64,000 nucleotides of DNA, from assembly GCF_014698235.1 (NCBI RefSeq), contig NZ_JACJSP010000013.1, positions 1 through 64,000 of the forward strand, read 5' to 3'. Positions 28,413 through 46,833 of the stretch are shown here, in pieces. Below the pieces are notes generated by a model. It was given only the letters and a program-made list of their open reading frames with translations, did not search any database and had not been told where the DNA came from. Position numbers and translations under genes: made by a program. Source of the DNA: Limnothrix sp. FACHB-406. GTDB taxonomy: Bacteria > Cyanobacteriota > Cyanobacteriia > CACIAM-69d. Numbering within the stretch: the stretch's first letter is position 1; the number at the start of each line of letters is the position of its first letter.

Positions 28413-30899
28413 ATGGTGAATCGGTTGTCGGGTCTGGTTGTGGCGAGCGTGCTGTCGGTGGCAGGGCCGCAGGCCGTTTGGGCCGAAGACAACCCCATTC
28501 CTCGCGTCCAAGACCTTGGCCATCCTGCAACCAACCTACGGGAATGGCGAGCGCAAATTGAACGGGCCACCGTGCAAGTAACCGGCGTGCAACTGAACCG
28601 CACTGATACGGAACTTGAAATCGTCCTAGAAAGCGCCGAAGATCAGCCCCTGGAAATTGATGCGACTCAGTTCCGTACTGAGGGCAATAGCCTCGTTGCC
28701 GAGATTCCGAATGCCGTGCTGGCACTACCCGCAGGACAAGCCTTTGTGGCGGAGAACCCGATCGCTGACATCGCCACAGTGCAGGTGACGCAGCAAGACA
28801 GCAACACGATCCGGGTCAGCGTCACCGGAACCAACGCCCTGCCCACCACCGAAGTGACCCTGACCACCGCCGGCCTGGCCTATAGCCTCAACCCTGCCGG
28901 GGAGGAGCCAGACGAAGAACTCGTGGTTACCGGAGCAGGGCAACGGGGCTATCGCGTACCAAACTCCGCCGCCGCAACGCGAACAGATACGCCCTTACGC
29001 GATATTCCCCAATCGATTCAGATCATTCCCCAAGAACTGCTGCAAGACCAACGGGCTGACGTGACCAGCGCCTTGCTGAATGCGCCTAGTGTGCGGGTTG
29101 GCTCGCCGTCTAACTTTGACGCGGTGCGGGCCCAGGTGCGAGGCTTTTTCACCTCGCCCACCGTCGATGGCATAGTCGCACGGGATTTTAATGGGGTCTC
29201 TGCCAATATTGGCCCTGACCTCACGGGGATTGAGCAAATTGAAGTGCTCCAAGGGCCCAACTCCATTTTGTTTGGCTCATCCTCTCCGGGAGGAACGATC
29301 AACTTTGTCACAAAGCGCCCTTTGAGCGATCCCTATTACTTTGTGGAAGCGAGCGCGGGCAGCTTCGATTTTTACCGGGGCGAAGTGGATCTGTCTGGCC
29401 CCCTCGATCGCGACAAAAACATTCTTTATCGACTGAATTCTTCCTATCGCGACCAAGAGCTTTTCACGGATTCCAGCCGAACTAGAAACTTCGTGATTGC
29501 GCCAGTTCTGAGTTTTGCCTTGGGTGAAGACACCACACTCAGCGTTGAAGGCACTTACAAACATTTGTCCCGTGATAACGCCACCCACGGACTGCCGATT
29601 GTGGGCACAATTTTGGATAACCCCCTGGGGGATGTGCCGCGCAACCGCAACCTGACGGAAAGTGATGCTGAAGTTCGACAAACCCGAATTGGCTACAAGC
29701 TGGAGCATCAATTTAATGAAAATTGGTCATTAAATCATGCGTTTCGATATGGGTGGATGGAGTTTGACACCTTTGGCCGATTTCCGGGAGCGCTGGGTGC
29801 TGACAATCGAACTTTATCAACCAGCTTTTCTGACATTTCCGATCAGTATTTTGACTATCGGATGACTACGAATGTGGTGGGTAAGTTTGCGACTGGCTCC
29901 ATTCAGCATCAATTATTATTTGGGGTTGATTTAGGGCGATCGGATATTGAGCTGAAGTTCACGGGGCTAGAAGGCCCGCCCATTGATTTGTTTGATCCCG
30001 CCTTTGGGGCATCGCCTGGCGCGGTGACCTTTAGCAGTGAAGACAGCATTGTGACCGATGAGCTGGGGATTTTGCTGCAAGATCAAATCACCCTAGCAGA
30101 TAACTTGAAGGTGCTGATCGGTGGTCGGTTTGACATGTTTAGACAGACTGGCGATTTCGGCAATCCCGATCTGGTTCAGACGGGCGAGGCCTTTAGTCCT
30201 CGGCTAGGGATTGTTTATCAACCGATCGAACCGATTTCTCTGTATGCCAACTACAGTCGATCGTTTGAACCAACTATTGGTCGTTCTCGCGACGACAGTA
30301 CTTTTGAGCCTACCCGAGGAACCCAGTTTGAAATTGGGGTGAAAGCCGATTTAAGCGATCGGCTTTCGGCAACTTTAGCGTGGTACAACATCACCCAAAA
30401 AAATGTGCTAACCACCGATCCCGTTGATGACAACTTCTCAGTGCAAACGGGAGAGCAGCGGAGTCGGGGTGTTGAACTCAGCGTGGCAGGGGAGATTTTG
30501 CCAGGGTGGAATATTTTTGCCAGCTATGCTTACAACGACGCAAGAATCACCGAGGACAATAACTCGGATCTGGTGAATAACCGTGTCCAACGCACTGCGC
30601 CCCATGCAGCAAGTTTGTGGACAACCTACGAAATTCAGGAAGGCGATTTTCAAGGGTTGGGATTTGGCGTGGGCTTGTTTTATGTGGGCGATCGCGCAGG
30701 TGACAACGCCAATACGTTTGAGTTGCCGAGCTACCTGACAACTGATGCCGCAATTTTTTATAAACGGAACGGATTCCGCGCGGCAATCAACATCAAAAAC
30801 CTCTTTGATGTGGAGTACTTTGAAGGGTCTTTCAACCGCAACCGCATCTTTTATGGCGCACCGTTGACCGTGCAAGCCAGTTTTTCTTGGACGTTTTAA
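28413..30899 (+). CDS. TonB-dependent siderophore receptor with AMIN domain
   Basis: 828 residues, outer membrane. A signal peptide (LVVASVLSVAGPQAVWAED) is followed by an AMIN domain (about residues 45-150), then the TonB box region EELVVTGAG. The plug domain has TPLRDIPQSIQIIPQELLQD and IEQIEVLQGPNSILFGSSSP with GGTINFVTKRPL. A 22-strand barrel follows, ending INIKNLFDVEYFEGSFNRNR and the terminal Phe of the last strand (SFSWTF). The fused AMIN domain is typical of cyanobacterial receptors. Gene order suggests iron-siderophore uptake; TonB, ExbB and ExbD are not in the window. Confidence 0.94.
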   Translation: MVNRLSGLVVASVLSVAGPQAVWAEDNPIPRVQDLGHPATNLREWRAQIERATVQVTGVQLNRTDTELEIVLESAEDQPLEIDATQFRTEGNSLVAEIPNAVLALPAGQAFVAENPIADIATVQVTQQDSNTIRVSVTGTNALPTTEVTLTTAGLAYSLNPAGEEPDEELVVTGAGQRGYRVPNSAAATRTDTPLRDIPQSIQIIPQELLQDQRADVTSALLNAPSVRVGSPSNFDAVRAQVRGFFTSPTVDGIVARDFNGVSANIGPDLTGIEQIEVLQGPNSILFGSSSPGGTINFVTKRPLSDPYYFVEASAGSFDFYRGEVDLSGPLDRDKNILYRLNSSYRDQELFTDSSRTRNFVIAPVLSFALGEDTTLSVEGTYKHLSRDNATHGLPIVGTILDNPLGDVPRNRNLTESDAEVRQTRIGYKLEHQFNENWSLNHAFRYGWMEFDTFGRFPGALGADNRTLSTSFSDISDQYFDYRMTTNVVGKFATGSIQHQLLFGVDLGRSDIELKFTGLEGPPIDLFDPAFGASPGAVTFSSEDSIVTDELGILLQDQITLADNLKVLIGGRFDMFRQTGDFGNPDLVQTGEAFSPRLGIVYQPIEPISLYANYSRSFEPTIGRSRDDSTFEPTRGTQFEIGVKADLSDRLSATLAWYNITQKNVLTTDPVDDNFSVQTGEQRSRGVELSVAGEILPGWNIFASYAYNDARITEDNNSDLVNNRVQRTAPHAASLWTTYEIQEGDFQGLGFGVGLFYVGDRAGDNANTFELPSYLTTDAAIFYKRNGFRAAINIKNLFDVEYFEGSFNRNRIFYGAPLTVQASFSWTF

Positions 30900-30948
30900 C
30901 CCAGCGATCGGCGATCGCCCAGTATTCATCAGCCGGGGTAAGCATGAA

Positions 30949-32106
30949 ATGGAATCACCACAAAAGCCTTTACCAAAATCACTCACTCGCCTGCTTTCTG
31001 CCAAACTCAGAACGATTTCTTTCTTCATTCATCGCTGGTTAGGTTTGGCGATCGGGATTTTGTTGTGCATTGCGGGTTTGACTGGCAGCGTTCTCGTTTT
31101 TTGGCACGAAATTGATCATTGGGTGCTGGTTCAGCGGCTGGGAACCGTTGTGCCTGCCGGGACAATAGTGCCCGTTGCTGCCATCATCGAATCGATCAAA
31201 ACGGCCTATGGGAAAAAGCAATGGAACCTCAGCACGGTTGCGCCACCCCAATCAGCCCAGGAACCCTATCAAGCCTGGTTGGAAACCCCAGCGCATCACC
31301 ATTGGCAGGTGTTTGTGCATCCCTACACGGGGCAAATTATGGGCGATCGGGAATGGGAAACCAGTTGGGTTGGCCTAATTTATGACCTCCATTACAAACT
31401 GCTGGCAGGGGAAACAGGAACCCTAATTATGGGCATTGTTGCGTTGCTGACGCTGATCTTGGGCCTCACTGGCATTGTGTTGTGGCCGGGCTGGCGCAAC
31501 TTCATGGCTGGATTCAAAATCAAGTGGAAAAATGCCCATATCAAACGAACCAACTTTGATATTCATAAAGTTTCAGGCATTATTACTGCAATCTTTTTGG
31601 GCTTGATTGGGTTCACTGGATTTGCCTGGAATGTGCCTCAAGCCAAGGTGAATGAGGCGATTTATGCTGTTACTTTCACGCCCAAGCCAGCCCCGCCAGT
31701 TTCCAAGCCTATTCCAGGTCAGCAGCCTTTATCCATTGCTGAGTTGATCCAGCGAGCTGAAGCGGTGATTCCCGATGCGACGATGACCTATATCGTGCTC
31801 CCTAAAAAGCCGGAATCTCCATTGATTGTGAGCAAGCGGCAAACCCAAGAAAGCTCGCAATGGGGCAATACTAGAGTGGCGATCGATCAGTTTACCGGTG
31901 AGTTAATTCAACTGACTGATGGGCTGAAGCCGACTCGGGCGGAGGCGATTATGAGTCAATTTGATGCGGTTCACTTTGGGACTTTTGGCGGTCTGGCAAC
32001 TCGAATTCTTTACGTTTTCGTTGGGTTGGCTCCCCTAGCGCTATTAATCACTGGTTTCGTGATGTGGAAGCATCGGCGCAGGGTTCCCAAGCCGGGCCAT
32101 TCCTAA
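30949..32106 (+). CDS. PepSY-associated membrane protein (iron uptake)
   Basis: 385 residues with four membrane segments: LAIGILLCIAGLTGSVLVFW, LIMGIVALLTLILGLTGIVL, GIITAIFLGLIGFTGFAWNV and LYVFVGLAPLALLITGFVMW. The large periplasmic loops carry PepSY-like sequence. IHRWLGLAIG and FDIHKVSGIITA provide conserved histidines that may bind haem or metal. Such proteins usually accompany TonB receptors and are proposed ferric-siderophore reductases. It lies 49 bases after the receptor gene. Confidence 0.88.
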   Translation: MESPQKPLPKSLTRLLSAKLRTISFFIHRWLGLAIGILLCIAGLTGSVLVFWHEIDHWVLVQRLGTVVPAGTIVPVAAIIESIKTAYGKKQWNLSTVAPPQSAQEPYQAWLETPAHHHWQVFVHPYTGQIMGDREWETSWVGLIYDLHYKLLAGETGTLIMGIVALLTLILGLTGIVLWPGWRNFMAGFKIKWKNAHIKRTNFDIHKVSGIITAIFLGLIGFTGFAWNVPQAKVNEAIYAVTFTPKPAPPVSKPIPGQQPLSIAELIQRAEAVIPDATMTYIVLPKKPESPLIVSKRQTQESSQWGNTRVAIDQFTGELIQLTDGLKPTRAEAIMSQFDAVHFGTFGGLATRILYVFVGLAPLALLITGFVMWKHRRRVPKPGHS

Positions 32107-32273
32107 GTCAATGAATTTATTAGTTGCACTACGGATCTTGATTTGGAGGCGATCGCCCAACTCAGGACTGATGACCTGCTGAACCCCTAAAACCAATACA
32201 GCTTTTACCGAAAACGATTAGTACGCTATATCGAAGATGCTATGAGGCAGTTAGTAGCTGTGCAGTGCCCATC
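32107..32273. other. Junction between core genome and AT-rich island
   Basis: Just after the PepSY gene the base composition shifts. A frame running through 32196-32300 (FYRKRLVRYIEDAMRQLV) is uninterrupted but has no start and may be a gene remnant. A palindrome fragment (gcccatcctacggg) at 32265-32281 belongs to the same repeat family as 33654-33798. Confidence 0.35.
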
Positions 32274-33581
32274 CTACGGGCCACTATCTCCCGCACCAAT
32301 ACCAAGCTTGCGGAGTATTTCCCAAACTGGTAGGAATGATCTAAATGTATGATAAGAGTATTTTGGTATATTATCAGCGTAGTACAAATTATCAAAATTC
32401 ACCAAATAGATATACTCAATATATCTCAAGTATATCTTCCGAAGTAGACCGGTTTCATATATGTCTAGATTGTGCGTAAATACAGAACTAATGACGCTTG
32501 TTTTTACGCCATACCAGTCAGGAAGTGAAATTTCGGATTCTATTTTCTTATGATCTGTTGTTAGAAAGCATCGATCAAATTCACTTTTTACTATTTGAAT
32601 TGCAAGTCCATGAAAGTTATATTCCAATTCTGAAAACCAATATTTTCTTGAATCTTCATCAAGTTGATCGTAAATAGATTGTATTTCTGAAGATCGTCCC
32701 TTAGCAGTCTCACCATAAACGACATCATTATCGCAAGAGTTTCTAAACGAGGCGAAAGGGTTTATGAAAACTGCATATATTACATTGGGGTGAGGGAGAA
32801 TGTCTGCAATTTCTCCCCAATTTTGAGTAGCGTAGACAATCGCATGAAAGCCTTCTGCTTCAAGTCGATGAGATATTGAGCTTGAAATTGTATTTAAAGC
32901 CTTTCTAGAATAATCAGGGATTATTTGTTTATTATCTTTGTCTGTATCTATCCAGCCGCTTAGTTCTTCAAATTCTATGGCAACAGTGTACATTGATCTA
33001 TCGTCGAGTAAATTATTTTCAAACCATTGGTAGTATGATGAATCTGGGTAGTAAACAGTTAGTATTATTTCGCCGTTATCCTGTTCTGATGGAATAAAAG
33101 CAGCAGAAGAGTGGTTATTCCATAACACTTCTTGTACAAAAGCATCTCTGACTGTTCTTGTTTCCATTGGTGCGATCAATATGGTATTTACACCTTGTTC
33201 TGCTAAACCAGGGAATATTGAGTAGAAATGATTTGCATAAGCTAAAAGTTCAGTAAAGGCTTGTCGCTCTGTCTGCTTTGATTTTTTTAGCTCAATAATC
33301 GTTAAGCCTATACATTCAGAATTGCCAAATAAGTCAATTCGTGTGGTTGAGTTGCCTTGCTTTTCTAGTCGTAACTCTTTTGCAGAAAGAATAAGTGACT
33401 CAAGACCATCAATAATCCGGTTGATTTTTTCTTCAACAATTTGTTGAAGCAATATACTTATTGGGGGAAAACCATCTCCATTCCAAACAATTGGATCACG
33501 TCGCCCTTTAATAATTTTGAACAAAGATTCTTTATGTTTTTCATAAATCAGATCCCTCAACTGATTTTCGCTTAATTTCAT
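32274..33581 (-). CDS. PD-(D/E)XK nuclease-like protein of unknown function
   Basis: 435 residues in an AT-rich gene without GCGATCGC sites, preceded by GGAAGG. The N-terminal 125 residues look like a PD-(D/E)XK nuclease core of the RecB kind: helical lead-in with Glu (EEKINRIIDGL), TTRIDLFG with Asp83, IGLTIIELKKSKQ with Glu97 and Lys99, and RQAFTELLAYANHF, which fits the QxxxY helix. The remaining 300 residues are not recognised and contain no ATPase, HTH or membrane segment. Single proteins with this architecture occur in defence-rich islands, but no known system is identified. Composition and position indicate acquisition by transfer. Confidence 0.7.
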   Translation of the reverse strand: MKLSENQLRDLIYEKHKESLFKIIKGRRDPIVWNGDGFPPISILLQQIVEEKINRIIDGLESLILSAKELRLEKQGNSTTRIDLFGNSECIGLTIIELKKSKQTERQAFTELLAYANHFYSIFPGLAEQGVNTILIAPMETRTVRDAFVQEVLWNNHSSAAFIPSEQDNGEIILTVYYPDSSYYQWFENNLLDDRSMYTVAIEFEELSGWIDTDKDNKQIIPDYSRKALNTISSSISHRLEAEGFHAIVYATQNWGEIADILPHPNVIYAVFINPFASFRNSCDNDVVYGETAKGRSSEIQSIYDQLDEDSRKYWFSELEYNFHGLAIQIVKSEFDRCFLTTDHKKIESEISLPDWYGVKTSVISSVFTHNLDIYETGLLRKIYLRYIEYIYLVNFDNLYYADNIPKYSYHTFRSFLPVWEILRKLGIGAGDSGP

Positions 33582-33653
33582 TTAAAGCCTTCCACAAATT
33601 TAGATACAAGATAACTCGTCTCGATAAAATATCGTCGAACAACTCCAGACCTA

Positions 33654-33798
33654 CCAGCTAGTAGGGTGGGCATTGCGATCTAGCCAAAATGGTATCTATC
33701 CTTAAAACAGGAATTGCCTCTCCCCGGAGTTTGATTGGATAGCTTTCACTATGGACTATGGGTATAGGTGGACATTGCCCACCCTACTGGCTGGCTAG
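33654..33798. repeat. MITE-like element with inverted ends
   Basis: agtagggtgggcattg (33660-33675) and its inverse cattgcccaccctact (33773-33788) agree at 15 of 16 positions and enclose about 97 bases. Flanks ccagct and ggctggctag extend the similarity loosely. No coding capacity. A short form of the same palindrome occurs at 34639-34660. Confidence 0.65.
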
Positions 33799-33803
33799 TA
33801 TAG

Positions 33804-34073
33804 CTACTCATCCTGTTTGAGGCTTTCGATAGCTGATACTACGTCCTGGAGAATTTCCCCAAACCCACTTAGTTGCTCATCAAATGCATCACCGTTAGCG
33901 GCGTAGAGTGAGTTTTGTCTCTCCATTTCCAACGCCTTTTTTGCTTGAATGACATCGGAAACAGAGATGTTGAACTCCTTGGCTAGGTGCGTTGCACTCT
34001 CCAAGAATGATCTCAAATCGCCTGAAGAAATGAGACGGTAGTTCCGTGGTTCCTGCTCGAATAATGTGCCCAT
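33804..34073 (-). CDS. Small helical protein of unknown function
   Basis: 89 residues. GAGGAG stands 7 bases before the ATG at 34073, so expression is credible. The N-terminus is soluble; LAKEFNISVSDVIQAKKALE could be a short helix-turn-helix but is too brief to call. The rest is an acidic helix ending AIESLKQDE. It reads in the same direction as the nuclease-like gene 220 bases downstream, from which it is separated by the MITE-like element. Confidence 0.6.
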   Translation of the reverse strand: MGTLFEQEPRNYRLISSGDLRSFLESATHLAKEFNISVSDVIQAKKALEMERQNSLYAANGDAFDEQLSGFGEILQDVVSAIESLKQDE

Positions 34074-34196
34074 AGTAATCTCCTCTATCAATCAGTTTCA
34101 CACTGTCATTTTGGTTAAAGTTTAATACTTAGACTTTAACAACAGGATGACACCCTCATCTTCCGATCGTAGCTTCTGGCATTGTCAGGATCTATC

Positions 34197-34242
34197 AATT
34201 CGGCAAGACGATCGCCCGTGGAACCCAGCCTGCCCGATCGCC
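34197..34242 (-). pseudogene. Copy of the last codons of the M14 peptidase
   Basis: Read on the minus strand it encodes GDRAGWVPRAIVLPN-stop, against GDRAGWVQRAIVLPNS-stop at the true end of the peptidase gene (35466-35516). 41 of 46 bases agree and most differences are synonymous. No upstream part of the peptidase is present here. The antitoxin and EF-G domain IV genes lie between the two copies. Confidence 0.8.
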
Positions 34243-34261
34243 CACCAGAACCAACGCAGTG

Positions 34262-34552
34262 TTAGGCAATGGGCACAACATGGAGACGTAACCCAAGCAC
34301 CTGTAAAACCTTGAGAACCGTAGCAAACTCTGGATTACCTTCGATTGACAAAGCCTTGTAGAGACTTTCACGCCCCAACCCTGTTTCACGGGCAATCTGG
34401 GTCATCCCTTTAGAACGGGCAACATCTCCCAACGCTGCTACGACTAGGCTCGGATCACCCTCTTCAAGAGCAGCTTCCAGATAAGCAGCGATATCTTCCT
34501 TGGTTTCCAGATGATCTGCTGCATCCCAAGAATGAGTTTGAACGATCGCCAT
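34262..34552 (-). CDS. Antitoxin of the HigA-like addiction-module family, without toxin
   Basis: 96 residues with an XRE-type helix-turn-helix: GMTQIARETGLGRESLYKAL, and the family ending FATVLKVLQVLGLRLHVVPI. The N-terminal YLEAALEEGDPSLVVAALGD is diagnostic for the addiction-module antidote group whose toxin is a RelE/HigB-like killer encoded just upstream. Here the upstream 110 bases hold only a REP-like palindrome and no toxin gene, so it is an orphan. GGGAG precedes the ATG. It may regulate its own promoter or protect against an incoming toxin. Confidence 0.85.
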   Translation of the reverse strand: MAIVQTHSWDAADHLETKEDIAAYLEAALEEGDPSLVVAALGDVARSKGMTQIARETGLGRESLYKALSIEGNPEFATVLKVLQVLGLRLHVVPIA

Positions 34553-34638
34553 AGAAACTCCCTATAGGTCGTTTGCTGAATCTAAGGCTGTTTAAATATC
34601 TCTTTCCTGAGTGCGTTGATTTTCTCCTGAAATAAGGA

Positions 34639-34660
34639 TAGGTGGGCAATGCCCACCCTA
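34639..34660. repeat. REP-like palindrome
   Basis: TAGGTGGGCA and TGCCCACCCTA face each other with almost no loop. It lies between the antitoxin gene and the EF-G-like gene and is related to the ends of the element at 33654-33798. Confidence 0.75.
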
Positions 34661-34664
34661 CTGG

Positions 34665-35171
34665 CTAAGTTGGAGAAATAGGGATAATTGCATTCTCTAT
34701 CGGATCGATCAAATATAATGCCTTTTGATACATTAGTTGTTTCATAACATCAACGAACCATTTGCGAGCGCAAATTTCAAAAGCTATAATGCTTGAATCC
34801 ACATCATGGTAAGCACCGTCTACAAGTTCAACTTCTATGTTCATAATAGGATATCTGTCAAAAATTTCTGATTCAATCGCTTCAGATAAGCCTCTTTGAA
34901 TTCCAGGAATACATTCAGAAGGAATTTCAATCCCTAACTCAATTGCTCCAGATAAGCCTCTTTGAATTCCAGGAATATATTCAGAAGGAATTGCTCCTCC
35001 TCTTATACGATCAATAAAAGTAAATCCAGCGCCAGATTGATTTGAACGTAATCTAGCTACTATTTTGGCGTATTGCCTGGCACTACCGCTTGACTTTTGA
35101 TGCGTGAACTCATGTTCCACATCTACATCATCGGCAATTTGTACGTAATAAGCCACATCTATTTCGCTCAT
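34665..35171 (-). CDS. Stand-alone elongation factor G domain IV-like protein
   Basis: 168 residues that match EF-G domain IV and nothing else of EF-G: VDVEHEFTHQKSSGSARQYA (loop at the start of the domain), GFTFIDRIRGGAIPSEYIPG, IMNIEVELVDGAYHDVDSSI and AFEICARKWFVDVMKQ. The tip histidine of the YHDVDSS loop is kept. There is no GTPase domain, so it cannot be a translocase on its own. Residues IPSEYIPGIQRGLSGAIELG are repeated as IPSECIPGIQRGLSEAIESE, a duplicated helix. AGGAAG precedes the ATG. Similar short proteins exist in cyanobacteria as far as I recall; function unknown, binding to ribosomes or tRNA mimicry is a guess. Confidence 0.82.
   Translation of the reverse strand: MSEIDVAYYVQIADDVDVEHEFTHQKSSGSARQYAKIVARLRSNQSGAGFTFIDRIRGGAIPSEYIPGIQRGLSGAIELGIEIPSECIPGIQRGLSEAIESEIFDRYPIMNIEVELVDGAYHDVDSSIIAFEICARKWFVDVMKQLMYQKALYLIDPIENAIIPISPT
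34884..34992 (-). repeat. 66-base in-frame duplication inside the EF-G-like gene
   Basis: Two near-identical 43-base blocks begin at 34884 and 34950, period 66 bases or 22 codons. They differ by one base in the part compared (Cys/Tyr codon). The duplication adds one extra helix to the domain. Confidence 0.88.
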
Positions 35172-35465
35172 ATATTTCTTCCTCAGGAGCGTTTTTGCAA
35201 ATAAGGCGGAATGTCAAGGGTGCGCTGAACTTTAATCTGTAGCGTGACTCATAAACTGGTCAACTTTTTTGCGTCGGCTCCAACGTTCTTGTTATTTCAA
35301 CAGAGTCCCCCAAGATATGGGCGTGCCAGAAGCCTGAGCTTATCCATCACTATATTGCCGCCTCTAGCAACTCATGTCCTCAATCACGGTGGTCGAAGCG
35401 ATCGCAACTCCTCAAATAACCCTGTCTAGCTGTTAGCCTGTCGTGGTTTCTGAGATTGTAAAAAT
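35172..35465. other. Intergenic end of the island behind the M14 peptidase
   Basis: 294 bases between the start of the EF-G-like gene and the stop of the peptidase. It should contain the promoter of the island genes. No gene, terminator with T run, or tRNA is seen. Confidence 0.35.
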
Positions 35466-37160
35466 TTACGAATTTGGCAAGACGATCGCCCGTTGTACCC
35501 AACCAGCCCGATCGCCCCGGGCCGTGAGATCCACCACCATTCCTGGTTCGCCACGCACCAGCCAAACCACCCGCGATCGATCGTCCGTCGGATCCATGTG
35601 GTCGTAATAGGGCGTAGTCGGTTGGTGCGATCGCCCCGCCAGATGACCCAAACTCACTTCCGGTTGACCGCTGATCAGCTCCGCACCCGGCGGTAGGGCG
35701 ATCGCCGCGCGACAGGGTTGCACCGCCCCCTTTTCGATCGCCTTTTGCGTGCCATTGGTCGGCAGCCAGCCCGTGTTTTGCACCACCCACTCCACTTGGA
35801 ACAGCCGATCGCCCAAGGATTGCGCCGTGGCCTTCACCGGTTCCAGGCGCGGCGAAATCAGCAATTGCCACAGCAGCCAGCGGGGAAACCGTTCGATTTC
35901 TCGTTCCAACAGGTGAGCCGGTGGGTTGCGCCAGGTGCAAATTTGGTTCCAGCCGCCCAGTTCCACCTTGCCCAGTTGCGGATGCTCCCAGGCGTACCAA
36001 TCCACATAGCCGCGCCCGTCCAGCACCTCATCGTTCCACTTCAGCAGCGCCAAATCTTCCTCGATCGGGTGGTCGTCCAGCCATTCCAGCAGTTTCGGCG
36101 TTTTCACCCCCGCCGCTTGGGGCAAGTTCCACAGCTCCACCGTCCAGGCAAATAGCCCCCGCTCCTCATAGCACCAATCGTCAAAGGCTCCGGTCATCAC
36201 GTTTTTCGGATGGTCGCAGTAGCCCTCAAACACGCTGGTGGCGGGGTAGTCCGTCAGTTCCGTGCCCTTTTGCCCGATCGCCCGGTAATTCAGCCAATCC
36301 GCTTGGGGCAATTCCATATCGGTGGCGTGGCTGTAGGGACGCAACAGCAGGCCGCCAAAGGTGTGAAAGGCCACGGCGGCGTTCAGGTTGGGGTGATGGG
36401 CAATGAAGTCCGCGATCGCCCGCGTTTCCGGCTCCGAGGTGGGATAGTTGCCTGCGCCGGTCTGTTCCGGTTCCGGTCGCCACTGCATCGGGAAATTGCG
36501 GTTTAGATCCAACCCTTCGATCGGGCGTGGCGTGGTGATCGTCGCGCCGTCGTAGCGATCAATCCGGCCCTCCGGCAGCAGTCGATAGTAAGTGCCGCCG
36601 GTTTCGATCGGGTCGCGCCGCACCAGCAACCGGGGATCGCGATCGGACACTTTCCAGGCCCCATTCGGATCGGGCACACGCATCCAAAGGATCCGCCCGT
36701 CCCCATCGATATCTTCCATTTGCAGTTCGCTGGGGCCGCCCGCCAACCGATCGCCCGGATAGGGTCGAGTGCTCGATCGCACAAATTTGGGGCGATCGGC
36801 CAGGGCCAGCTCGGCTCCGTCGGGATTCACGCGAGGGCAAATATAAAACGTCCGCGAATCCAGACAGCGGGTAACGTCCGGATCGCTGCCGTAGTGCTTT
36901 GTCAAAAAGTCGAGGAGATAGAGGCAGGCCGTGGAAGGCGCAAGTTCCGTGGCGTGGATATTGCCATCCACCCAGAGGGCTGGCTTGTGGCGATCGGGCC
37001 CCGTCTCGCTATTGGTGATGGTTAGTAACCAAATATCCCGGCCCTCGTAGCTGCGGCCAATCGATGCCAATTGGACAAGCTGCGGAAATGCGGCCGCGTA
37101 GCTCTGCAAAATCTCCGACAGTTCCGCATAGCGGTAGAGACGATCAAAAGAAACCTGACC
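35466..37160 (-). CDS. M14-family zinc carboxypeptidase
   Basis: About 564 residues. Zinc ligands are visible as GNIHATELAPST (His and Glu of HxxE) and, 180 residues later, AAVAFHTFGG (third His). The catalytic Glu is in LFAWTVELWNLP. Between them lie the substrate-binding Arg/Asn block PIEGLDLNRNFPMQW and CPRVNPDGAE. The C-terminal 150 residues form an extra beta-rich domain (LFQVEWVVQNTGWLPTN). No signal peptide is evident. The ATG at 37160 begins MGQVSFDRLYRYAELSEI; an ATG at 37205 is possible. Its final codons are duplicated at 34197-34242. Confidence 0.92.
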   Translation of the reverse strand, partial: GQVSFDRLYRYAELSEILQSYAAAFPQLVQLASIGRSYEGRDIWLLTITNSETGPDRHKPALWVDGNIHATELAPSTACLYLLDFLTKHYGSDPDVTRCLDSRTFYICPRVNPDGAELALADRPKFVRSSTRPYPGDRLAGGPSELQMEDIDGDGRILWMRVPDPNGAWKVSDRDPRLLVRRDPIETGGTYYRLLPEGRIDRYDGATITTPRPIEGLDLNRNFPMQWRPEPEQTGAGNYPTSEPETRAIADFIAHHPNLNAAVAFHTFGGLLLRPYSHATDMELPQADWLNYRAIGQKGTELTDYPATSVFEGYCDHPKNVMTGAFDDWCYEERGLFAWTVELWNLPQAAGVKTPKLLEWLDDHPIEEDLALLKWNDEVLDGRGYVDWYAWEHPQLGKVELGGWNQICTWRNPPAHLLEREIERFPRWLLWQLLISPRLEPVKATAQSLGDRLFQVEWVVQNTGWLPTNGTQKAIEKGAVQPCRAAIALPPGAELISGQPEVSLGHLAGRSHQPTTPYYDHMDPTDDRSRVVWLVRGEPGMVVDLTARGDRAGWVQRAIVLPNS

Positions 37161-44411: not shown

Positions 44412-44839
44412 GGGCAGCGCGACCTCAGGATCACGCTTAAATCACTTAAATTCCTTGGGGCCGAGGGCGATCGCGCTGGGCAACTGTCACAGTGTCTTGA
44501 TGGGATGAGCGATGGGAATGGGCGGTGTGGTTGGGGTCGATCCAGGTGTATTGGCCAGGTTCATTGCGTTGACCAGTTGGTCAGCGGGTTGATGAACGGA
44601 TTGATCACGAACCGATCATCCCAACCGTGATCGCCTCCGAGATTTTTTGATTAATTTCGATCGACCCATTTCCCGATCGACCCACTTCCCGATCGGGCAA
44701 CTTTTGCAGTCAATTAATGTACGATATTCAAAATACGCTCTGACAGATTTTGGATCAATTATTCAAAACCCAATTTAGGCTACCCATCAATTGTGGGCAA
44801 ATTGCAAAATTCAAAACTTCTAATCTTATAACAAATTGT
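44412..44839. other. Region left of the origin
   Basis: No gene. 44600-44700 holds repeated cgatcgacccacttcccgat-type sequence (gatcgacccatttcccgatc and gatcgacccacttcccgatc in tandem at about 44659-44695). 44700-44839 is markedly AT-rich and could be a DNA unwinding region. Confidence 0.4.
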
Positions 44840-45160
44840 GCTTTGTCAGGTAAGGGGTGATCACCTGACCCCCTTGTGGAAAACTGCCCGATCGGGGCAA
44901 AATCTGTGGAAAACCTGTGGAAAAGTACCCCTATTCTGTGGAAAACCTGTGGAAAAATACCCCTCTTTCTGTGGAAAAAAAAAAGTGTCTGTGGAAAACT
45001 TGACTAAGTATAAATACCCTGTGGAAAAATACCCCCCCTTTTTCCACAGGGTTTTCCACAGGGTGTGATCGCTGAAAGGTTCATGAAATAAGGATTTTTT
45101 TGAGTTTTCCACATTTCCACAGGGCCCTACTACTACTATCTATTTAAAAAATAAGAAAGA
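44840..45160. other. Candidate chromosomal replication origin (oriC)
   Basis: Eleven exact DnaA boxes TTTTCCACA. Eight read on the minus strand, at 44875, 44905, 44916, 44937, 44948, 44970, 44990 and 45020. Three read on the plus strand, at 45040, 45052 and 45105, followed by a one-mismatch box ATTTCCACA at 45113-45121. AT-rich DNA lies on both sides (44700-44840 and 45139-45175). After the last box come GGGCCC and four CTA triplets (45127-45138), the layout of a DnaA-trio element. dnaN begins 560 bases to the right, as at the known origin of Synechococcus elongatus. Confidence 0.9.
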
Positions 45161-45684
45161 GAAGAAGAGATAGATAGTCCAGCCCAAAAATTTTCTTGGA
45201 AACGGCCAAAATTCTTCGGGGAGACGGTCTGTTTCTCTCGAACTCAGGATCCAGTTTTTAGCCTAGTCGATCGAGCCGGAATCGCAACCGACCAGTGAGG
45301 CAGTGGCCGCTAGGGGCTGGAGACGACAGGGTTCGAGCTGGGCTGAGTTTGAAACCCAGCGGTTGACGGATCCGAAAACGGCTAAAACCCAGACAGAATC
45401 AGGATCTGAGCGCTCAAAGTTCGCTGCGCTTGAGGCCGAGCCGATCGGCAAGTCTGAGGGCGATCGAACCCTTTGAAAACGGCTAAAACCCAAGCCAGGC
45501 TTTGATTGTTGCGATCGCGCTTCGACTTTCCAGCAGGCGATCGGGCTGCAAAGTCACGGGTTACTCCCGATGGCCAAAACGGCGATTTTGGGTTAAACTC
45601 AGGGCTGCTCATCGGGGCCAAATTTCCCCCGGCGGCGGTCGCCGTTTTCCACAGAACAGCCCCGAAACCCAAGCCCCAGAAGCC
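45161..45684. other. Leader region of dnaN
   Basis: No gene. The 18-base sequence starting gaaaacggctaaaaccc occurs exactly at 45374 and 45476. The promoter of dnaN should lie here; the second half is GC-richer and includes gcgatcgc at 45511. Confidence 0.4.
45645..45653 (+). promoter_or_regulatory. DnaA box in the dnaN leader
   Basis: Exact TTTTCCACA, 31 bases before the dnaN start and 530 bases from the main cluster. Its place fits autoregulation of dnaN by DnaA, which is known in other bacteria but not shown here. Confidence 0.6.
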
Positions 45685-46833
45685 ATGAAGCTGCTTTGCG
45701 CCCAAAGCGACCTGAGTGCCAACCTGTCCCTGGTCAGCCGTGCCGTCCCGTCACGGCCGACGCACCCGGTTTTGGGCAATGTGCTGCTGACCTGCGATGC
45801 GGGCACTCAGCGCGTGAGTTTGACCGCCTTTGACCTCAGCTTGGGCATCCAGACCAGCTTCCCGGCGGAAGTGGAAGATTCTGGGGAAATCACGTTGCCG
45901 GCCAAGCTTTTCGCGGACATTGTGGGCAAGCTGCCCAACGGCACGGTGTCGCTGGATGCGAACGAGGACTGCTCAGCGGCAATTTCCGCCCAGTCCAGCC
46001 GCTACCAGATTCAGGGCATGAGCGCCGAAGAATTCACAACCCTGCCGGTGGTGGAAACGGGCGAAGCGGTTTACCTGCCGGTGGCGGCGCTGTTGGAGGG
46101 GATGCGCGGTTCCCTGTTCGCCGCCAGCAACGACGAAACGAAGCAGATTTTGACCGGGGTTCACCTGTCGGTGGAGACCGATTCCCTGGAGTTTGCGGCG
46201 ACCGATGGCCACCGGCTGGCGGTGGTGCGGGCGGCAATGGTGGAGGACGAAGAGACGGAAACGGGTACGGTGGAACCCTTTGCGGTGACGGTTCCGGGTC
46301 GGACGCTGCGGGAGCTGGAGCGGATTTTGGCGGCGCAGCAGTCGAGCGAACCGGTGGCCCTGTACTGCGATCGGGGGCAGTTGGCCTTGCAGTGGGGAGA
46401 TTATTACCTCACCAGCCGCACCCTGGAAGGGCAATACCCGGCTTATAACCAGCTCATTCCCCGCCAGTTCGATCGCCAGGTGACCGTGGAGCGGAAGTTG
46501 TTGCTGGGGGCGCTCGATCGAATCTCGGTGATTGCTGACCAAAAGAGCAACCACATCGTCAAGTTCTCGATCGACGCAACGAACCAAAGTCTAGGCATTT
46601 CCGCCGATGCACAAGATGCGGGCAGCGGTCGCGAAACGATCGAATCGGCCCAAATTTCCGGTGAGGACATCGACATCGCCTTCAACGTCAAGTACTTGAT
46701 GGAATCGCTGAAAAACCTGACCACAACAGAGATTCAGCTTCAAATGAACACGCCCACCAGCCCGGTGGTGATCACGCCTTTGGGTGGCGCAAAGGCAACC
46801 CATTTGGTGATGCCGGTGCAGGTGCGGAGCTAG
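45685..46833 (+). CDS. dnaN: DNA polymerase III subunit beta (sliding clamp)
   Basis: 382 residues, complete. MKLLCAQSDLSANLSLVSRA at the start; three repeated clamp folds; the hallmark FAATDGHRLAVVRA near residue 170 and the C-terminal GGAKATHLVMPVQV with the conserved MPV/MRL-type end. It forms the ring that tethers the polymerase and recruits repair and initiation-control proteins. The frame is open for 61 codons upstream of 45685, but that DNA contains a DnaA box and no clamp-like sequence, so the ATG at 45685 is taken. Confidence 0.98.
   Translation: MKLLCAQSDLSANLSLVSRAVPSRPTHPVLGNVLLTCDAGTQRVSLTAFDLSLGIQTSFPAEVEDSGEITLPAKLFADIVGKLPNGTVSLDANEDCSAAISAQSSRYQIQGMSAEEFTTLPVVETGEAVYLPVAALLEGMRGSLFAASNDETKQILTGVHLSVETDSLEFAATDGHRLAVVRAAMVEDEETETGTVEPFAVTVPGRTLRELERILAAQQSSEPVALYCDRGQLALQWGDYYLTSRTLEGQYPAYNQLIPRQFDRQVTVERKLLLGALDRISVIADQKSNHIVKFSIDATNQSLGISADAQDAGSGRETIESAQISGEDIDIAFNVKYLMESLKNLTTTEIQLQMNTPTSPVVITPLGGAKATHLVMPVQVRS

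Follow-up and report, generated by a model that had tools for sequence, protein, structure and literature searches.

The basal unwinding system (BUS) of Bacillus subtilis consists of two co-oriented DnaA boxes, a GC-rich gap and repeated 3'-GAT-5' triplets (DnaA-trios) on one strand. Such a system is recognized by at least one DnaA box no more than 16 bp from the trios, usually as a co-oriented tandem pair, and by at least three 3'-NAN-5' triplets, best 3'-GAT-5', that run away from the box. It is further expected to lie at a chromosome origin, to be conserved in register in relatives, to be served by a cognate DnaA with a pocket for single-stranded DNA and an arginine finger, and to be separated into strands by DnaA only if boxes and trios are both present. 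In 2021, DnaA of Synechococcus elongatus was shown to unwind its own boxes and trios in vitro (PMC8287927). The hallmarks of cyanobacterial oriC are TTTTCCACA as DnaA box and dnaN as neighbor (PMC6323995, PMC4674748).

We analyzed a 64-kb stretch of DNA from Limnothrix sp. FACHB-406 (64,000 nucleotides, referred to as the window), the features of which are listed in Table 1. A convergent array of ten DnaA boxes, eight on the minus strand facing two on the plus strand, is followed by a further pair at 45105 and 45113. Array and pair sit between an upstream gene and dnaN, the product of which is 100% identical to DnaN of Limnothrix sp. CACIAM 69d, and the sign of the GC skew flips locally about 8 kb left of the pair. 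Judged from the convergent array, dnaN and the nearby skew change, all read from the sequence, the site is a typical cyanobacterial chromosome origin.

Table 1. Features of the putative Limnothrix origin, with coordinates in the window.
Feature	Coordinates	Strand	Basis or remark
Eight perfect DnaA boxes TTTTCCACA, left half of convergent array	44875..45028	-	
Conserved palindrome GTATAAATAC	45008..45017	.	2 bp before minus-strand DnaA box (TGTGGAAAA)
Two distal DnaA boxes, 45040-45048 and 45052-45060	45040..45060	+	box scan
Upstream DnaA box of the module, TTTTCCACA, perfect cyanobacterial consensus	45105..45113	+	read directly; 13 bp from first trio
Second DnaA box of the module, ATTTCCACA, one mismatch	45113..45121	+	read directly; 5 bp from first trio
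GC-rich spacer GGGCC, 5 bp	45122..45126	+	read directly
Four DnaA-trios, CTACTACTACTA: CTA x4 on plus strand, 3'-GAT-5' x4 on the strand presumably held by DnaA	45127..45138	-	read directly
AT-rich stretch, likely first opened region	45139..45154	.	duplex stability
dnaN, usual neighbor of cyanobacterial oriC	45685..46833	+	

A preliminary description of this DNA had listed the two boxes, GGGCCC, four CTA triplets and an AT run, and direct reading showed this to be correct to every base. The two boxes overlap by one base (A45113), GGGCCC occupies 45122-45127, its last C (C45127) also being the first C of CTACTACTACTA, and TCTATTTAAAAAATAA directly follows the four consecutive triplets. The proposed match to the BUS in order and direction holds, and register and spacing agree as well, with tandem co-oriented boxes, a GC-rich spacer and a complement that reads 3'-GAT-5'. 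Limnothrix also has in common with B. subtilis a distal box of the same direction and identical DnaA contact residues. In contrast to B. subtilis, the boxes overlap, oriC adjoins dnaN and is distant from dnaA, and there are only four trios, compared to six in the structure solved for B. subtilis (PMC10721633). The box at 45113 had been called the last DnaA box, which is true of the cluster but not of the intergenic region, where a perfect TTTTCCACA stands isolated at 45645-45653, about 30 bp before dnaN. This box is also present in a relative with 93% identical DnaN, and it may allow DnaA to control dnaN.

The dnaA gene of Limnothrix is found on a different contig from the module. Among solved structures, its product (485 aa) is best matched by a DnaA chain of B. 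subtilis (8btg), and the match covers almost the entire protein. All nine residues compared (E183, N187, I190, I193, R202, K222, E223, E228 and R264, B. subtilis numbering) are identical in the two proteins.

Within the same phylum, the genome G035, which we take to be a close relative of S. elongatus, has the arrangement box-box-4 bp-CTATTACTACT ahead of dnaN, and its distal box lies 53 bp away. It differs from Limnothrix by one C-to-T change in its second triplet, by a spacer of 4 instead of 5 bp and by boxes that abut instead of overlapping. The expectation that a clear trio in Limnothrix would extend the mechanism to cyanobacteria is not supported, this step having been taken in vitro with S. 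elongatus (PMC8287927). A working cyanobacterial BUS is already known, and the distribution of the element and a cytosine variant carry most of the interest.

By chance, the window should contain the motif CTACTACTA 0.01 times; it contains two copies, which overlap at the module. CTACTACTACTA occurs once in the 4.5 Mb Limnothrix genome, at the module, compared to eight occurrences of the same word read backwards. The box-spacer-triplet pattern TCCACAN{3,6}CTAYTAYTA has exactly one match in this genome, and its reversed control gave about 0.1 matches per genome across 388 cyanobacterial genomes.

The alignment with close relatives that the preliminary description had proposed came out in its favor: in relatives with 93% identical DnaN, boxes and triplets are retained, in contrast to the divergent sequence immediately downstream. 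Sequences from three distinct Limnothrix genomes hardly differ between the distal boxes and the end of the CTA run, with one spacer G lacking in the 93%-DnaN relative. Pattern searches of the 388 genomes likewise showed that the CTA register and spacing are conserved across the class. The full 27-base pattern (at most three mismatches) matches 211 of them, and the reversed pattern none. Lineages with overlapping boxes (Limnothrix, Gloeomargaritales, Thermosynechococcus) escape the full pattern and were caught by TCCACAN{3,6}CTAYTAYTA; with both patterns combined, matches were obtained in 37/38 genomes of family f26, 8/8 of f25, 8/8 of f17, 32/36 of f5 and 26/29 of f18. When only the box core was used as anchor and triplets were not required, 49 genomes gave one match each, and in all but Nostocaceae, f6 and f21 the box pair, 4-5 bp and CTA triplets came after the core. 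G394, which we take to be Gloeobacter violaceus PCC 7421, carries TTTTCCCCAGGCCCTACTACTACTA before dnaN. As far as these matches indicate, the element is kept from the deepest cyanobacterial branches to the picocyanobacteria of the ocean. Matches to TCCACAN{3,6}CTAYTAYTA in Nostocaceae, f6, f10, f12 and f13 were rejected as origins; they have a single box only and resemble coding sequence, or a multicopy element in the case of f13.

The spacer measures 4 bp in 83 of 88 loci. Besides Limnothrix, only L117 has a 5-bp spacer, and its boxes likewise overlap by one base, so that in both the extra spacer base is offset and the upstream box lies the usual 13 bp from the first trio. This distance is the commonest in a published survey (PMC8287927). 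The 86 loci with canonical CTA were chosen by a CTA pattern, and therefore the identity of the triplets is partly selected, whereas spacer length and family spread are not. The distal plus-strand box is found 53-55 bp from the module box in 19 of 24 trio-bearing loci, and the outliers (42 and 62-63 bp) are off by one helical turn, which agrees with the finding in B. subtilis that the distal box is helically phased (PMC6669920). In Limnothrix, box 45052 starts 53 bp before box 45105, about five helical turns.

Nearest-neighbor energies identified 45128-45154, that is, trios and AT-rich stretch, as the least stable 27-mer in the 64-kb window, and the AT-rich side left of the box array is more stable than the triplet side. 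We are highly confident that box pair, spacer and trios, with the adjoining AT-rich DNA, form the basal unwinding module of this chromosome origin, although the low number of trios and a spacer one base longer than in nearly all relatives speak against it. By analogy with B. subtilis and S. elongatus, domain IV of DnaA would bind the co-oriented boxes 45105 and 45113, and the left convergent array would feed DnaA to the module, the nearest box of the same direction being five helical turns off. The AAA+ oligomer would then grow rightward from the box anchor over the GC-rich spacer onto the minus strand and capture G and A of every 3'-GAT-5' trio. Opening of 45127-45138 and the adjoining AT-rich DNA would allow loading of the replicative helicase.

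We consider it very unlikely that the triplets are incidental and that the strands first part elsewhere, be it in AT-rich DNA to the left of the array (44700-44840) or at the palindrome 45008-45017. Segments at 44806 and 44710 do belong to the weakest 0.3% of the 64 kb, and the pairing of palindrome and box is conserved from G394 (presumably Gloeobacter) to Nostocaceae and outlasts the trios. However, the trio segment is the weakest of all, its register is conserved across the class beyond mere AT content, and the sequence on the left varies between Limnothrix species outside the boxes. Least probable is a chance microsatellite or another protein's site. Three-base repeats readily arise by slippage, but no result favors this origin, the run occurs once in 4.5 Mb, it lies at a fixed 4 bp from the box pair in more than 200 genomes (reversed pattern, 0), and substitutions in the presumed Cyanobiaceae respect the triplet position.

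Several other features were noted around the basal unwinding module. The palindrome followed by a TGTGGAAAA box was found in 49 of 139 loci, compared to 0.01% in base shuffles; the pairing spans the range given above and persists where trios are lost. The palindrome is a possible promoter -10 element or protein site. Reading this left element as a second, leftward set of 3'-NAN-5' trios works in Limnothrix and Nostocaceae but fails in G394 and f26, where A and T are swapped, and this reading was rejected; the palindrome GTATWWATAC fits better. Mirror-image trios on the far side of the AT stretch (TAGTAG on the plus strand), as a possible loader of the second helicase, are no more than a lead. 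Inverted TAGTAG runs are enriched there, being present in 10 of 86 loci where 1.9 would be expected. However, the enrichment is limited to some lineages, the inspected loci mostly have no right-hand box, and the window has just a 9-bp inverted repeat (45135-45143 / 45170-45178) that does not keep the triplet register. Where such runs occur (L129-L132, L088, L120, L141, L181), they may serve to position a second helicase or fold into a hairpin. Elsewhere in the window, 30000-36000 is low in G+C (0.44 compared to about 0.56), lies just left of the change in GC-skew sign and is possibly an acquired island, and 14675-14961 matches the Rfam family of the 5' ureB small RNA (121 bits).

No true trio match was found in 55 genomes, belonging to eleven families (f6, f7, f10-f13, f16, f20-f22, f24), of which f7 is Nostocaceae. 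The preliminary description had counted boxes conserved without triplets against its own reading. This situation does occur, but only in Nostocaceae and certain further lineages, and many of these have no need for dnaA or lack it. Many Nostocaceae have the box pair and the 53-bp spacing intact and the triplets gone, and the same was seen in f10 and in single genera of the otherwise trio-bearing families f5 and f14. At L227, L231, L237, L242 and the Nostocaceae loci, a perfect box pair stands at the usual place and unrelated sequence replaces the triplets. A DnaA tree of 27 genomes implies at least four changes of trio state, two of them forced by well-supported branches.

Among genomes at least 90% complete, 13 have no real dnaA match, and all of these belong to the eleven trio-less families (13/55 compared to 0/~279 others). 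According to published work, Nostoc PCC 7120, Synechocystis 6803 and Synechococcus 7002 can do without dnaA and some free-living species lack the gene, whereas S. elongatus requires it (PMC7198777). In the sequences compared, trio loss appears linked to DnaA-independence as a correlation over few independent events. Decay of DnaA was rejected as the explanation of trio loss, since 11 of the 12 trio-less genomes that were tested retain all pocket residues; in the other, G459, R202 is changed to H. The mostly intact pocket indicates that DnaA still does something in these genomes.

In family f19, which we take to be Cyanobiaceae, the box-spacer-triplet frame was matched in 37 of 38 origins inspected. 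On the plus strand, 25 distinct triplet strings have T at the triplet center in 61 cases, G in 36, A in 3 and C in none, which corresponds to A 61, C 36, T 3 and G 0 on the strand held by DnaA; the first base (plus strand) is C in 98 of 100. CGA and CGG triplets, with cytosine at the center on the DnaA strand, were seen at the picocyanobacterial loci L271-L300 and L256-L263. A plus-strand change from T to C was never seen at the triplet center, although GC pressure alone would also favor it, and since the best-match search weighted all mismatches equally, it had no bias toward G. The central adenine of B. subtilis trios tolerates exchange for cytosine, since the amine of cytosine still meets Asn187, but not for guanine or thymine (PMC10721633). 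The equivalent of Asn187 is retained in the cytosine-trio genomes tested.

In the open-access papers searched, we found none on trio loss or cytosine-centered trios in cyanobacteria, and within these papers both the distribution of trio loss and the central-cytosine variant look new. We propose, at roughly even odds, that cyanobacteria inherited the module from their common ancestor and that it marks DnaA-dependent replication where present, that lineages becoming or being DnaA-independent lost the trios on several occasions while often retaining boxes and spacing, and that picocyanobacterial DnaA reads cytosine-centered trios as a natural alternative.

These observations bear on the question of which cyanobacteria rely on DnaA and how the others came to differ (PMC7198777). 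A short and highly specific origin signature, present or absent by lineage, would make DnaA dependence testable from genomes and would single out strains for experiments. Cytosine-centered trios in the ocean's most abundant phototrophs would provide natural support for the base-capture model developed in B. subtilis.
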